Shown here in pieces: positions 27,721-33,932 of a DNA stretch of 64,000 nt; within the stretch, counting starts at the first letter, position 1; each line of letters opens with the position of its first letter. Where the stretch lies: contig DASVOS010000004.1 in assembly GCA_036383255.1 (NCBI GenBank), positions 372,001 through 436,000 on the forward strand. Reading direction: 5' to 3'. Below the pieces are notes generated by a model that was given only the letters and a program-made list of their open reading frames with translations, was not told the DNA's origin and did not search any database. The position numbers were made by a program, and so were the translations under genes. The stretch comes from Gammaproteobacteria bacterium (GTDB lineage Bacteria > Pseudomonadota > Gammaproteobacteria > Natronospirales > REEB76).

Positions 27721-28368
27721 TTAGTGCTTGCCGCCGGCAGCCCGTTCCTTGGCGATCAGGAACTCCACGCATTTCATGATGTCGGCGGAACCCATGCCGT
27801 AGCCGGCACCGGTCTTCCACTTGCCGTTCACGATCACGGTCGGCACGCCCTGCACGTCGTAACGGTTGCCGAGCTGCTGGGACTGGGCGATGCGCGACTG
27901 CACGCCGAAGGAATCCCAGGCGCCGTCGAAGTCCGCGGGCTTCACGCCGTATTTGCCGAAGAAGGCCTTGATGGCGTCCTTGTCGTCGCGCAACTCGCCC
28001 TGGTTGTCCAGATGGATGGCGTTGAAGAACGGCTCACGGATCTTCTCGCCCACGCCGAGCACGTCGGCGGTGAAGGCGGCCTGGGCGTCCACGTAGAACT
28101 CGGAGCCCTTCATGGCGGCGGGCACGCGCTTGAACACCACATCCTTGGGCTTGCGCTTCTCCCACAGCTCCACGAAGGGCTCGAGGGCGAAGCAGTGCGG
28201 GCAGCCGTACCAGTAGAACTCGATGACCTCCACCTGGCCGGGCTTCACGTCGGTGGACTGGGGCGGGTTCACGGCCACGTAGTTCACGCCTTCCGTGAAC
28301 GAGGTCATGTCGGCGGAAGCCGCCGCGGAGGCGAGCATCAGGATGGGGAGCAGCAGCCACTTCTTCAT
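27721..28368 (-). CDS. dsbA: Thiol:disulfide interchange protein DsbA (second of tandem pair)
   Basis: DsbA introduces disulfides into periplasmic proteins. The 215-residue protein has a signal peptide ending ASAAASA, the active site YGCPHC in a thioredoxin fold, a helical insertion and the cis-Pro loop VQGVPTVIVNG. It lies 16 nt downstream of a second dsbA, with which it shares the CPHC site and EFYWYGCPHCFALEP layout; the two are moderately similar and arose by duplication. The group follows the cytochrome c4 gene as in Pseudomonas and Xanthomonas relatives. Confidence 0.93.
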   Translation of the reverse strand: MKKWLLLPILMLASAAASADMTSFTEGVNYVAVNPPQSTDVKPGQVEVIEFYWYGCPHCFALEPFVELWEKRKPKDVVFKRVPAAMKGSEFYVDAQAAFTADVLGVGEKIREPFFNAIHLDNQGELRDDKDAIKAFFGKYGVKPADFDGAWDSFGVQSRIAQSQQLGNRYDVQGVPTVIVNGKWKTGAGYGMGSADIMKCVEFLIAKERAAGGKH

Positions 28369-28384
28369 CTGTCAGGTCCTCGGG

Positions 28385-29035
28385 TTATTTCGCAGCAGCG
28401 GGCATGGCCGCCTGCTCTTGGGTCACGAGCTGGTTCACCACCAGCATGATCTGGGAATAGGGTACGCCGAAGTCGCCGCCGGTGAGCCACTTGCCGTTCA
28501 CCACCAGGGTCGGCACGCCGAACTGGAACAGGCCGTAGCGGTCCGCCAGCACGTTGGCCTGGGCGATCTTGGCATCCAGCGCCGGCGAGCTCCAGGTGGC
28601 CTCGAACTTCTTCGGGTCCACGCCGAACTGCTTGACGAAGAAGCGCTCGAAATCCGCCTCCGTCTGCATCACGTCCTTGGCCTGGTGGATCTCGTCGAAG
28701 GTGGCCTTGTGGGACTTGGCGAGGATGCCGAGCGCCTCGGCGGTGTAGTAGGCGCGGGCGGCCGGTTCCCAGTCCGGCTGCAGGACCGCCGGCACGCGCT
28801 TCAGCACCACGTCCGCGGGCTTGCTGCGCTCCCAGGACTCGAGGTACGGCTCCAGCGCATTGCAGTGCGGGCAGCCGTACCAGAAGAAGTCCAGCACCTC
28901 GATCTGGCCGGGGTTCACGGAGGTGGGCTGCGCTGGCAGCACCGTCTGGTAGTTCACACCCTGCTTATAAGTGTCGGCTTGGGCGGAGCCCGCGACCAGC
29001 AGCAACAGGGATGCCAGGAATGCGATGGATCTCAT
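28385..29035 (-). CDS. dsbA: Thiol:disulfide interchange protein DsbA (first of tandem pair)
   Basis: This 216-residue paralogue has a signal peptide (cleavage after GSAQA), active site DFFWYGCPHCNALEP and cis-Pro loop FQFGVPTLVVNG. GAGG lies before the ATG at 29035. Two active-looking DsbA copies next to each other suggest divided substrate sets, perhaps one serving c-type cytochromes such as the neighbouring c4; this is inference. A gap of 55 nt separates it from the cytochrome c4 stop. Confidence 0.93.
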   Translation of the reverse strand: MRSIAFLASLLLLVAGSAQADTYKQGVNYQTVLPAQPTSVNPGQIEVLDFFWYGCPHCNALEPYLESWERSKPADVVLKRVPAVLQPDWEPAARAYYTAEALGILAKSHKATFDEIHQAKDVMQTEADFERFFVKQFGVDPKKFEATWSSPALDAKIAQANVLADRYGLFQFGVPTLVVNGKWLTGGDFGVPYSQIMLVVNQLVTQEQAAMPAAAK

Positions 29036-29090
29036 GCCGACCTCGGTGCCTCAGGAGTACATAACGCGGAGCGCCCGGCCTGGTGGACCG

Positions 29091-29717
29091 TCAGTGCTGC
29101 GGCGTGGCGCCGTGCAGGCCCTCGATGTAGCTGGCCACCGCCTGCATCTCGGCGGGGGTGAGCCGCGCGGCGATGGTCTCCATCATCTTGTTTGGGTCGG
29201 TGGTGCGGCTGCCGGCAGCGTAGGCTTGCAGCTGGGCCACCACATAGGCGCCGTGCTGGCCGCCCAGGGCGGGGACCTTCATGAGCGCGTTACCGGAACC
29301 ATCCGGGCTGTGGCAGGCGGAACAGGCCGGCACGTTCTCGGCCTTGTTGCCGTTGCGGTAGAGGGACTCACCCTGCTTCACCTGGCCGGCCTCGGCCTCG
29401 CCCACGTTGCGGGTCTGGCTGGAGAAGTAGGCGGCCAGGTCCTGCATGTCCTGGTCGCTGAGCTTCTGGGCCTGGGGCGACATGATGGGGTTCTGGCGCT
29501 TGCCGGACTTGAAGTCCCCGAGCTGCGCCTGGATGTAGCTCGCGTTCTGGCCGGCGAGCTTGGGGAACTGCGGGCTCGCGCTGTTGCCGTCCATGCCATG
29601 GCAGGCGCCGCAGACCGTGGCCTTGCCCTTGCCGGCGGCGGCATCGCCGTCTGCCTGGACTTCGAGGGCCACGCCGGTGGCGGCCAGGAGCAGGGCGATC
29701 GTCAGCAGCTTCTTCAT
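29091..29717 (-). CDS. Dihaem cytochrome c4
   Basis: The 208-residue exported protein contains two c-type haem domains with sites CGACH (about residue 36) and CSACH (about residue 130), each followed by its Met-ligand region (NPIMSPQAQ and PNKMMETIAARL). This is the cytochrome c4 layout, an electron donor to terminal oxidases. AAGGAA precedes the ATG. It diverges from engB across 105 bp, a conserved gammaproteobacterial arrangement. Confidence 0.92.
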   Translation of the reverse strand: MKKLLTIALLLAATGVALEVQADGDAAAGKGKATVCGACHGMDGNSASPQFPKLAGQNASYIQAQLGDFKSGKRQNPIMSPQAQKLSDQDMQDLAAYFSSQTRNVGEAEAGQVKQGESLYRNGNKAENVPACSACHSPDGSGNALMKVPALGGQHGAYVVAQLQAYAAGSRTTDPNKMMETIAARLTPAEMQAVASYIEGLHGATPQH

Positions 29718-29822: not shown

Positions 29823-30425
29823 ATGCGCCTGGACTTCCGCCACATGCGTTTCCTGCTGAGCGCCGCCGCCCTGGCAGGCCTGCCCGCCGACACGGGCCGC
29901 GAGGTCGCCTTCGCGGGGCGCTCCAACGCCGGCAAGTCCAGTGCCTTGAACGCCATCAGCGGCGTGTCGGGCCTGGCCCGGGTCAGCAAGACTCCCGGGC
30001 GCACCCGGCTCATCAACCTGTTCGGCCTCGAGGGCGGCATGCGCTTCGTGGACCTGCCGGGTTACGGCTACGCCAAGGTGCCGGAGGCGGAGCGCCTCAA
30101 GTGGGGCGCCATGGTCGAGGACTACCTCAACGCACGCCAGAGCCTGGCCGGCCTGATCCTGGTGATGGACATCCGCCATCCCCTCACGGAGTTCGACCGG
30201 CAGATGCTGGGCTTCGCCGGGGACCTCAGCCTCCCGGTGCATGTGCTTCTCTCGAAGGCGGACAAGCTCGGCCGCGGTGCCGCCGCCAAGACCCTCGCCG
30301 ACACCCGCAAGGGCCTGCGCGGTTGGGGTACGGCCCAGCTCTTCTCGGCCCACTCGGGCGAAGGGGTCGAGGAGGCGCAGAAGCTCCTGGCGGCGTGGCT
30401 CACGGGAGAGACGGAGAAAAAATAA
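29823..30425 (+). CDS. engB: Ribosome biogenesis GTPase EngB (YihA/YsxC)
   Basis: EngB is an essential GTPase for large-subunit assembly. The 200-residue protein shows G1 GRSNAGKSS, G2-region TPGRTRLINLF, G3 DLPGYGYAK, G4 LSKADKL and G5 FSAHSGEG. A TACACT -10-like box lies about 27 nt before the ATG. Its stop codon lies inside the terminator stem of the convergent small RNA. Confidence 0.95.
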   Translation: MRLDFRHMRFLLSAAALAGLPADTGREVAFAGRSNAGKSSALNAISGVSGLARVSKTPGRTRLINLFGLEGGMRFVDLPGYGYAKVPEAERLKWGAMVEDYLNARQSLAGLILVMDIRHPLTEFDRQMLGFAGDLSLPVHVLLSKADKLGRGAAAKTLADTRKGLRGWGTAQLFSAHSGEGVEEAQKLLAAWLTGETEKK

Positions 30426-30461
30426 CCCCGGCGCCAAAAGGGGGAAAAGCGCCGGGGTTAT
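30416..30461 (-). terminator. Intrinsic terminator of the engB-polA intergenic RNA
   Basis: A perfect 13-bp stem (30422-30434 with 30449-30461) encloses a C/T-rich 14-nt loop. On the minus strand six T follow. On the plus strand no T-run follows, so the terminator works for minus-strand transcripts. Confidence 0.85.
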
Positions 30462-30544
30462 CAGGAGCTACATCCGGCTTGGGGAGACCGGCTGTAGGGC
30501 CCGCCCATGGGAGACGGGGCGGGTTGAACGCCGTTGCGACGCTC
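30416..30544 (-). ncRNA. Probable ErsA/Spot 42-position small RNA, about 129 nt
   Basis: The RNA is predicted from structure and context. It lies between convergent engB and polA, where Pseudomonas has ErsA and E. coli has Spot 42. From an inferred start near 30544 it would contain hairpin 1 (30500-30523: 7-bp GC stem, loop reading CGTCTCCCAT on the minus strand), hairpin 2 (30468-30497: stem CTACA/TGTAG plus CCGG/CCGG, loop TCTCCCCAAG) and the terminator hairpin with a poly-T tail. Both loops present UCUCCC, able to pair with Shine-Dalgarno sequences. The length is close to the roughly 130 nt I recall for ErsA. The start site and function are inference. Confidence 0.65.
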
Positions 30545-30550
30545 AAGCTA

Positions 30551-30579
30551 TAAGACCCGCGAGCGGGGATTTTCGTTCC
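30551..30579 (-). promoter_or_regulatory. Sigma-E/AlgU-like promoter for the small RNA
   Basis: On the minus strand GGAAC (30579-30575) is followed 19 nt later by TCTTA (30555-30551). This fits the AlgU/sigma-E pattern GAACTT-N16/17-TCTGA in both elements and spacing, and envelope-stress control is known for ErsA. Confidence 0.5.
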
Positions 30580-30753: not shown

Positions 30754-33519
30754 TCAGTGGGCTTCCTGCCAGTTGGAGCCGACACCCACATCGACCGTGA
30801 GCGGCACCTTCAGCTTGGCGGCACCGGACATGAGCACCGGGATCTCCTTCTCGATCACCGTCAGCGCGCCCTGCTCCACCTCGAACACCAGCTCGTCGTG
30901 CACCTGCATGACCATGCGCGCCTTCACGCCGCTCTGCTTGAGCCATGCGTGCACGGAGATCATGGCGCGCTTGATCACGTCCGCCGCGGTGCCCTGCATG
31001 GGCGCATTCACTGCGGCGCGTTCGGCATACTGGCGCACCTGCTGGTTCTTGGACTTGATGTCCGGCAGGTACAGGCGCCGGCCGAACACCGTCTCCACGT
31101 AGCCCTGCTCGCGGGCGAGCAGGCGGGTCTGGTCCATGAACTGCTTCACGCCGGGATAGCGCTTGAAGTAGAGGTCCACATACTCCTGCGCCTCGCCGCG
31201 GCCGATGCCGAGCTGCTTGGCGAGGCCGAACGCGGACATACCGTAGATGAGGCCGAAGTTGATGGCCTTGGCGGCGCGGCGCCGCTCGTCGCTCACCTCC
31301 TTGGGCTTGAAGCCGAACACCTCGGCGGCGGTGGCGCGATGGATGTCCATGCCCTGCTCGAAGGCCTTGAGCAGGCCGGCGTCGCCCGAGAGGTGCGCCA
31401 TGATGCGCAGCTCGATCTGCGAGTAATCCGCCGCCACCAGCACGTGGCCCTTGGGCGCGACGAAGGCCTGGCGGATGCGCCGGCCCTCCTCGGTGCGCAC
31501 GGGGATGTTCTGCAGGTTCGGGTCGGTGGAAGACAGGCGCCCCGTGGCCGCCACCGCCTGGTGGTAGGAGGTGTGCACGCGGCCGGTCTTGGCGTCCACC
31601 TGCTCCGGCAGCTTGTCGGTGTAGGTGGACTTGAGCTTGTTCAGGGAGCGGTACTCCAGGATCACCTTCGGCAGCTCGTGCTCCTCGGCGAGCTCCTCCA
31701 GCACGTCCTCCGCCGTGGAGGGCTGGCCGCTGGCGGTCTTGCGCACCACCGGGATCTCCATCTTCTCGAACAGGATCGCCTGCAGCTGCTTGGGCGAGTC
31801 CAGGTTGAAGGGACCGCCGGCGAGTTTCTGGGCCTTCTCCTGCAGCCCGGCCAGCTTCTGGGTGATCTCCGCGCTCTGGGCCTTGAGCATGGCGGTGTCG
31901 ATGAGCACGCCGCAGTGCTCCATCTCCAGGAGCACCGGCACCAGGGGCATCTCGATCTCGTCGAACACCTTGCGCAGCGCCGGCACCGAGCGCAGCTTCG
32001 GCCAGATCGCCTGGTGCAGGCGCAGCGTCACGTCCGCATCCTCGGCCGAGTACTTTGCGGCGTCCTCGATGCGCACCTGGTCGAAGCCGATCTGCTTGGC
32101 GCCCTTGCCGGCCACGTCCTCGTAGTGGATGGTCTTGTAGTCCAGGTACTTCTCGGCGAGGGAGTCCATGTCGTGGCGGCTCGCCACGCTGTCCAGCACG
32201 TAGGACTCCAGCATGGAGTCGTAGCGCATGCCCTGCATGTGGATGCCGTAGTTCGCCAACACGTGGGCGTCGTACTTGATGTGGTGGCCGAGCTTCTGCT
32301 TCTTCGGGTCTTCCAGCAGCGGCTTCAGGCGTTTCAGCACCTTGTCCCGGTCGAGCTGGACGGGAGCGTCGGCGTAGCGGTGCGCCAAGGGAACGTAGGC
32401 GCCCTCGCAGGCCTTCACCGCGAAGGACACGCCCACGATCTCGGCCTGCATGTACTCGAGGCTGGTGGTCTCGGTGTCGAAGGCGAAGAGCTCGGCGGCC
32501 TCGAGCTTCTTCATCCACTCGTCGAAGCTGGCTTCGTCCAGCACCGCCGTGTGCACGCCGGGCGGCGGCGCCGGGCGGGTGGGCGGCGCCGGCGGGGGCG
32601 CCACGTCCTTCTCGCGGTGCGGTTCCTCGCCGCCCTCGTCCAGCGCCCGCAGCCAGCTCTTGAACCCGAAGCGGGTATAGAGCTCGCGCAGCCGCGCCTG
32701 GTCCGGGGCGCGCATGGCGAGCTCCTTCGGTCCCAGCGGCAACTCCACGTCGCAGCGGATGGTGGCGAGCTGGCGCGAGAGCAGCGCCGCGTCCCTGTGC
32801 TGCTCGAGCTTGGGCGCGAGGGTCTTGGCGCCGCGCACCGGCACCTGCGCCACCTCGCCCAAACGCTTGTACATCTCTTCGAGGCTGCCGAAATAGGTGA
32901 GTAGCGGCGCCGCGGTCTTGGGTCCGATGCCCGGCACGCCCGGGATATTGTCGGAGCTGTCGCCCACCAGCGCCAGGTAGTCCACGATCTGCTCGGGCCA
33001 GACGTCGAACTTCTCCTTCACGCCCTCGCGGTCGAGGCGCGTCTCGGTCATGGTGTTTATGAGCGTGATGCGCCCCTCGTCGTCCACCAGCTGCGCCATG
33101 TCTTTGTCGCCGGTGGAGATCAGCACCGTGAGCCCCTGCTCCAGGCCGCGCTTGGCGAGCGTGCCGATCACGTCGTCCGCCTCCACGCCCTTCACCTTGA
33201 GCAGCGGGAAGCCCAAGGCCTCCACCAGCTCGTTGAGGGGGTCCACCTGCGCGCGCAGGTCGTCCGGCATGGGCGGGCGGTTCGCCTTGTACTGCTCGAA
33301 CAGGTCGTCGCGGAAGGTCTTGCCGCTGGCGTCGAACACCACCGCGGTGTGCTCCGGCGTGTGCTCCTGCATCATCCGCTTCAGCATGTTCGCCACGCCA
33401 TAGATCGCGCCGGTGGGTTCGCCCGAAGGCGAGGTGAACGGCGGCAGGGCGTAGAACGCGCGGTAGAGGTAGGAGGAGCCGTCCACCAGCACCAGCGGCG
33501 GTTTCTCGCGCTTGTTCAT
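30754..33519 (-). CDS. polA: DNA polymerase I
   Basis: The 921-residue enzyme has all three domains. The 5'-nuclease is at the N-terminus (MNKREKPPLVLVDGSSYLYR; GDKDMAQLV; LVGDSSDNIPGVPGIG). The 3'-5' exonuclease follows with its DxE motif intact (FAFDTETTSLEYM). The family A polymerase carries motif A ADYSQIELR, motif B RRAAKAINFGLIYGMS and motif C VHDELVFEV. Proofreading should therefore be active. The start at 33519 overlaps the lptM stop by 4 nt; the longer in-frame start at 33609 is a read-through of lptM. Polymerase I fills gaps and removes Okazaki primers. Confidence 0.97.
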   Translation of the reverse strand: MNKREKPPLVLVDGSSYLYRAFYALPPFTSPSGEPTGAIYGVANMLKRMMQEHTPEHTAVVFDASGKTFRDDLFEQYKANRPPMPDDLRAQVDPLNELVEALGFPLLKVKGVEADDVIGTLAKRGLEQGLTVLISTGDKDMAQLVDDEGRITLINTMTETRLDREGVKEKFDVWPEQIVDYLALVGDSSDNIPGVPGIGPKTAAPLLTYFGSLEEMYKRLGEVAQVPVRGAKTLAPKLEQHRDAALLSRQLATIRCDVELPLGPKELAMRAPDQARLRELYTRFGFKSWLRALDEGGEEPHREKDVAPPPAPPTRPAPPPGVHTAVLDEASFDEWMKKLEAAELFAFDTETTSLEYMQAEIVGVSFAVKACEGAYVPLAHRYADAPVQLDRDKVLKRLKPLLEDPKKQKLGHHIKYDAHVLANYGIHMQGMRYDSMLESYVLDSVASRHDMDSLAEKYLDYKTIHYEDVAGKGAKQIGFDQVRIEDAAKYSAEDADVTLRLHQAIWPKLRSVPALRKVFDEIEMPLVPVLLEMEHCGVLIDTAMLKAQSAEITQKLAGLQEKAQKLAGGPFNLDSPKQLQAILFEKMEIPVVRKTASGQPSTAEDVLEELAEEHELPKVILEYRSLNKLKSTYTDKLPEQVDAKTGRVHTSYHQAVAATGRLSSTDPNLQNIPVRTEEGRRIRQAFVAPKGHVLVAADYSQIELRIMAHLSGDAGLLKAFEQGMDIHRATAAEVFGFKPKEVSDERRRAAKAINFGLIYGMSAFGLAKQLGIGRGEAQEYVDLYFKRYPGVKQFMDQTRLLAREQGYVETVFGRRLYLPDIKSKNQQVRQYAERAAVNAPMQGTAADVIKRAMISVHAWLKQSGVKARMVMQVHDELVFEVEQGALTVIEKEIPVLMSGAAKLKVPLTVDVGVGSNWQEAH

Positions 33520-33932
33520 GGCTGGGCCGGACCCTGGGTGGCGGCGGCAGGCGCAGGCAGCGGCGCAAGCACCGCGCCCGGCAGCGTCACCGGCGGCTGT
33601 AGCACGCAAGGGGCGGGCGTGAGTTGCGGCACGCCGTCCGCGTCGGCGGTCTCCATGGGTGCCGCGGAGACCGCGGGCGCACGGGTGCTGCCCGGCGGCG
33701 GCAGGAGCAAGAGGTTCAGCGGCATGCCGGTGGCGGTCTGGCGGCGCTCGTCCTCATATATGCAGTCCGCCAGCAGGAGGTCGCGGGGGCGCAGCACCGG
33801 CGGCGGCAGGGTGCTGGGGAAGGCCACCGTCGGCATCCTGAGGAACAGCGGGCCGATCTGGCCGCAGCCGGCCAGCGACAGCAGCGGCAGCAGCGCCAGC
33901 AGGCGGGACGGGGATACGGAGCGGGGCGGCAT
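33516..33932 (-). CDS. lptM: LptM-like lipoprotein with long proline-rich tail
   Basis: The 138-residue protein has a lipobox LSLAGC (Cys23) followed by GQIGPLFLRMP, matching the LptM (YifL) signature LAGCGQKGPLYLP; LptM helps mature the LptDE lipopolysaccharide translocon. The usual protein is only about 50-70 residues, so the Pro/Ala-rich 90-residue extension is unusual. TATACT ends 6 nt before the ATG with no Shine-Dalgarno sequence. The stop overlaps the polA start (ATGA), so polA translation may depend on lptM. In E. coli the gene lies beside dapF instead. Confidence 0.72.
   Translation of the reverse strand: MPPRSVSPSRLLALLPLLSLAGCGQIGPLFLRMPTVAFPSTLPPPVLRPRDLLLADCIYEDERRQTATGMPLNLLLLPPPGSTRAPAVSAAPMETADADGVPQLTPAPCVLQPPVTLPGAVLAPLPAPAAATQGPAQP

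Follow-up and report, generated by a model that had tools for sequence, protein, structure and literature searches.

A predicted small RNA gene beside polA in a gammaproteobacterium, with a sigmaE-type promoter and C-rich loops like those of sX13

Small RNAs (sRNAs) encoded beside polA have been described in several bacteria. The sRNA sX13 of Xanthomonadaceae lies downstream of polA and carries three C-rich loops, with which it represses mRNAs that have G-rich motifs near the start codon in an Hfq-independent manner. Type IV pilus genes are among the mRNAs repressed via these loops, sX13 accumulates in salt and heat, and its authors raised the question of whether related sRNAs exist at the polA locus of other bacteria (PMC3771888). 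A search of that paper's text turned up no link to RpoE (PMC3771888). ErsA of Pseudomonas aeruginosa is an RNA of about 130 nt from the polA-engB intergenic region, is transcribed from a sigma22/AlgU promoter (GAACTT..TCAGA), and has a U-rich single-stranded stretch between its first two stem-loops (PMC8575079). Spot 42 (RF00021) of E. coli comes from the polA-yihA/engB locus. Our literature search found no paper that treats sX13 and ErsA as related, or that names both.

Here, we describe the corresponding locus in a gammaproteobacterial genome; the window is the whole stretch of 64,000 nucleotides that was analysed. Its sequence indicates that a real small regulatory RNA gene almost certainly lies between polA and engB on the minus strand. 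The gene for DNA polymerase I, polA (30754..33609, minus strand), is the upstream neighbour on the same strand, and the engB/yihA GTPase gene (29823..30425, plus strand) is convergent, its 3' end overlapping the U tract of the sRNA terminator. The predicted RNA, about 130 nt long, occupies 30416..30546 (minus strand), as judged by its fold z-score, DNA homologues, and covariation, and its 5' end would fall within a few nucleotides of 30546-30544. The predicted fold has an energy of -67.8 kcal/mol, against -44.9 +/- 3.8 in shuffled sequences (z = -6.0), and none of 200 shuffles was as good. Beside engB, the minus strand at 27721-29717 encodes two DsbA-like thioredoxin-fold proteins and a two-domain cytochrome c, going by ORF sequence only.

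The predicted RNA is almost fully structured, with hardly any single-stranded stretch. It folds into four hairpins, and three of them (hairpin 1, hairpin 2, and the terminator) have C-rich loops. The 5' hairpin (TTGAGCGTCGCAACGGCGTTCAA; 30524..30546, minus strand) and the terminator hairpin (30421..30462, minus strand) are each seen in the fold, the alignment, and the covariation. Hairpin 1 (30500..30523, minus strand) has the loop CGUCUCCCAU (also given as CGTCTCCCAT) at 30516-30507, and hairpin 2 (30468..30497, minus strand) the loop UCUCCCCAAG (also given as TCTCCCCAAG) at 30487-30478. The terminator combines a perfect 13-bp stem (ATAACCCCGGCGC/GCGCCGGGGTTAT) with the C-rich loop UUUUCCCCCUUUU, which contains CCCCC, and ends in the U tract TTTTTT (30416..30421, minus strand), read in the sequence. 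A sequence-only reading of the window had reported two hairpins with C-rich loops, the perfect stem, and the six T, and at the level of letters all of this was confirmed on the minus strand. Its inventory of two loops and a terminator was right but incomplete, as the 5' hairpin at 30546-30524 and the C-rich loop of the terminator had been overlooked.

A DNA search found homologues of the sRNA in 14 of the 19 genomes of the window's order, and all 14 share the strand of polA and sit 84-211 nt downstream of it. With this presence, always downstream of polA, the sRNA is not a chance pattern. In the alignment of the 14 homologues, the invariant cores are GCAA in the loop of the 5' hairpin, CUCCC in hairpin 1, and CCCCAAGCC in hairpin 2, while 16 of the 32 stem pairs show two-sided changes that preserve pairing. 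Altogether, 96.6% of the alignment cells pair, a figure that falls to about 45% in a control in which the partner is shifted by one column, and the covariation score was reached by none of 500 shuffles. The sequence-only reading had proposed looking in relatives for covarying stems around constant loops; both are found, and the loop cores are the opposite of freely variable. A small ORF in the sRNA (15 codons, AUG in loop 1) was considered and rejected: the AUG is missing in relatives, in which the loop reads CUCCCUGAG or similar.

The promoter is, in sequence, of the sigmaE/AlgU-dependent type. Both elements of the GGAAC-N19-TCTTA pattern pointed out earlier are present letter for letter on the minus strand at 30579-30551: the -35 element GGAAC at 30575..30579 and the -10 element TCTTA at 30551..30555, the spacer being N19 in the window and N18 in most relatives. 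GAAC-N17-19-TC occurs at the promoter position in all 14 homologues of the order, and GAACTT-N16-TC is the form in nearly all of them except the window's own copy, which deviates from the GAACTT consensus by reading GAACGA and by one extra spacer base. A sigma70 promoter-like match is also present at 30671-30644, about 100 nt upstream of the predicted sRNA start.

The window's genome encodes RpoE, above the NCBIfam cut-off, and after rpoE an RseA_N anti-sigma protein (RseA/MucA-type). GAACTT-N16-TCCAT precedes rpoE (read by eye; the stricter GGAAC pattern did not match there), and this same promoter form upstream of rpoE supports the GAACTT consensus in this organism. A sigmaE-type promoter ahead of rpoE itself is the classic autoregulatory arrangement. 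At this locus (L101, 2042-2683) rpoE and rseA are followed by a PDZ-domain protein and then lepA; no separate rseB/mucB-like ORF is among the ORFs listed after rpoE-rseA. An AlgZ-type kinase had been cited as fitting an envelope-stress network. The AlgZ/LytS-type histidine kinase motif, RPHFLFN, is indeed present (window position ~545, minus strand), but it lies 30 kb away and no evidence connects it with the sRNA locus.

The element extends well beyond the order. At E <= 0.001, R1, a covariance model built from the 14 order homologues and without the promoter sequence, has matches in 155 of the 369 Gammaproteobacteria searched, mostly once per genome. A phylum-wide search of 398 genomes gave matches in 17: 14 in Gammaproteobacteria and three, all weak, outside. 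polA or engB is within the stretch at 26 of the 30 class-wide loci examined (three of the 30 being from the window's own order), and among loci selected by engB the R1 matches adjoin polA. When 74 matches were aligned, 67 folded as four hairpins, 71 had CUCCC, and 62 had CCC in three or four hairpin loops. Compared with a background of 1.75%, the promoter pattern is found upstream of 27 of 30 other engB/polA loci and of 26 of the 27 top class-wide loci. In total, a sigmaE/AlgU-type promoter is present at 53 of the 57 inspected loci that belong neither to the order nor to sX13. This conservation lends strong support to the earlier proposal of an sRNA that combines an AlgU/sigmaE-type promoter with loops resembling the anti-Shine-Dalgarno sequence.

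The same data bear on whether there is a free RNA at all. It is highly improbable that the element is a mere terminator or attenuator for polA (or a bidirectional one for engB) from which no regulatory RNA is released. It does end in a strong terminator that directly faces the engB 3' end, but its stand-alone promoter is conserved, its loops are invariant, three further hairpins covary, and tandem copies exist, each with its own promoter.

The arrangement of the gene varies among genomes. Four tandem copies are present in one genome (G188; L108, contig C33, 1501-2254) and at least five are among the matches listed in another (G295; contig C8, 6558-7492). Tandem copies are also present at L131 (1501-1842), and G165 has two. 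In G188 and G165, six copies were read, and each has its own GGAAC..TC promoter. In one family (L124 and L127, 1501-1616) the sRNA lies away from polA, between hslV/hslU and a rimO-like gene (names given by reading translations), and the promoter is kept. At L027, L040, L121, and L138 the sRNA is inverted relative to polA; the promoter pattern is kept in the first three and unmatched in L138.

As for function, we consider it likely that the gene specifies a sigmaE-driven, trans-acting sRNA that represses translation by pairing its C-rich loops with Shine-Dalgarno regions rich in G, and that it belongs to a polA-adjacent family that includes sX13 and probably ErsA. Under envelope stress, the gene's own sigmaE (RpoE/AlgU) promoter would drive transcription of the RNA of about 130 nt. 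Three hairpin loops would expose YCUCCC/CCCC motifs and pair with GGGAG/GGGGAGA Shine-Dalgarno regions, and selected mRNAs would be translationally repressed. Genes of the envelope and the pilus (fimV, for example) are predicted targets, as is the gene for a TonB-dependent receptor. Translational repression like that by sX13 is the most likely mode of action, because the loop letters that are both exposed and invariant are rich in C and match sequences of the Shine-Dalgarno type. The existence of the gene, its structure, promoter, and conservation, and the sigma factor gene come from computation; its expression, the direction of regulation, and the targets are what we infer.

Candidate targets come from pattern searches, and fimV, lemA, and the TonB receptor were named by reading translations. 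Of 17 genomes of the order, 14 have GGGGAG within 25 nt of the fimV start codon, with 10 of 10 in the window's family and 4 of 4 in a second family. In the window's genome, the ribosome-binding site of the TonB-dependent receptor gene is perfectly complementary to loop 2 over its full 10 nt (-18.4 kcal/mol). fimV and the TonB receptor are accordingly named only as predicted targets, as G-rich ribosome-binding sites also serve translation itself and GGGGAG is a normal Shine-Dalgarno sequence. No compensatory loop-target change in fimV was found when families whose loop 2 has UCUCCCC were compared with those having UCACCCC; the fimV GGGGAG of the UCACCCC group pairs better with loop 1. lemA recurs as a pattern candidate in three relatives. 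hfq, a validated target of sX13, was rejected: its ribosome-binding site here is AGGAGA, with no G-run, and the G-rich motif is found in none of 10 genomes.

It could also be reasoned that, instead of repressing mRNAs, the C-rich loops sequester some other G-rich RNA or a protein that binds RNA. Several identical loops per RNA and the tandem gene copies of some genomes would suit such a sponge, but in the related sX13 such loops act directly on mRNAs to repress them (PMC3771888), and we regard a sponge as very unlikely. A CsrA-type sponge, which the sequence-only reading had suggested, is unlikely in particular and finds no support: the conserved loops are CUCCC, the complement of GGGAG, and contain no GGA.

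In Rfam, the window matches no family at the gathering threshold except a tRNA, and none is matched at the gathering score in 19 polA loci carrying the element. The best sub-threshold matches are alphaproteobacterial ar14 (RF02344; 35.0 bits, gathering score 58.8) and Burkholderia anti-hemB (RF02837; 31.2 bits, gathering score 49.5), which likewise have CCUCCC-type motifs in hairpin loops. Spot 42 shares the locus with the window RNA, but it has no R1 match, no sigmaE-type promoter that could be found, and no C-rich apical loops, and the window RNA has no gathering match to RF00021.

In addition to position, length, and promoter type, ErsA shares a C-rich terminator loop with the window RNA, but its middle domain is different. 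At Pseudomonas-like polA loci (the genomes being recognised by PrrF), a GAACTT..TCAGA promoter precedes an ErsA-type RNA in which the second and terminator loops are C-rich. Common descent with ErsA is likely on the basis of position and promoter. A direct orthologue of ErsA or Spot 42, acting mainly through single-stranded seeds and Hfq with the C-rich loops secondary, is nevertheless unlikely. The polA-engB position is identical, the promoter is of the sigmaE type as in ErsA, and Hfq is encoded in the genome, but the RNA offers almost no single-stranded stretch and lacks the U-rich single-stranded domain that ErsA has, and of 10 polA loci from Pseudomonadales R1 matches only four, weakly (14-24 bits). 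The label "ErsA-like" holds for position and promoter, while loop architecture and model scores favour sX13.

By loop architecture and by R1 matches at every tested sX13 locus, the characterised RNA most closely related to the window RNA is sX13 and not ErsA. R1 matches all nine loci, at the same position, with E of 1e-6 to 1e-12 in 28 kb; the loci themselves had been located separately with RF02232, the Rfam model of sX13, whose gathering score seven of the nine exceed. Both RNAs are encoded directly downstream of polA, measure about 115-130 nt, and carry, on stable stems, three loops rich in C (4C/4C/5C). They differ in that the window RNA has an additional 5' hairpin and in that the sigmaE promoter pattern is seen at only four of the nine sX13 loci. 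Against RF02232 the window RNA scores 20.7 bits (E 0.09) and does not reach the gathering score of 50, and it is therefore a relative rather than a member of that family.

The question of the sX13 authors can thus be answered with yes, class-wide and with a common sigmaE-type promoter, and sX13, ErsA, and many uncharacterised loci are joined as one testable envelope-stress family. More tentatively, and with somewhat less confidence than doubt, one ancient sigmaE-driven sRNA gene, established beside polA across much of the Gammaproteobacteria, may have given rise to sX13, ErsA, and the window RNA. It would act as a general envelope-stress brake whose several loops, multiplied in some genomes by tandem gene copies, mimic the anti-Shine-Dalgarno sequence and whose core target is type IV pilus/FimV assembly. 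Within the broader polA-adjacent family, which probably includes ErsA, the window RNA is sX13-like instead of ErsA-like.
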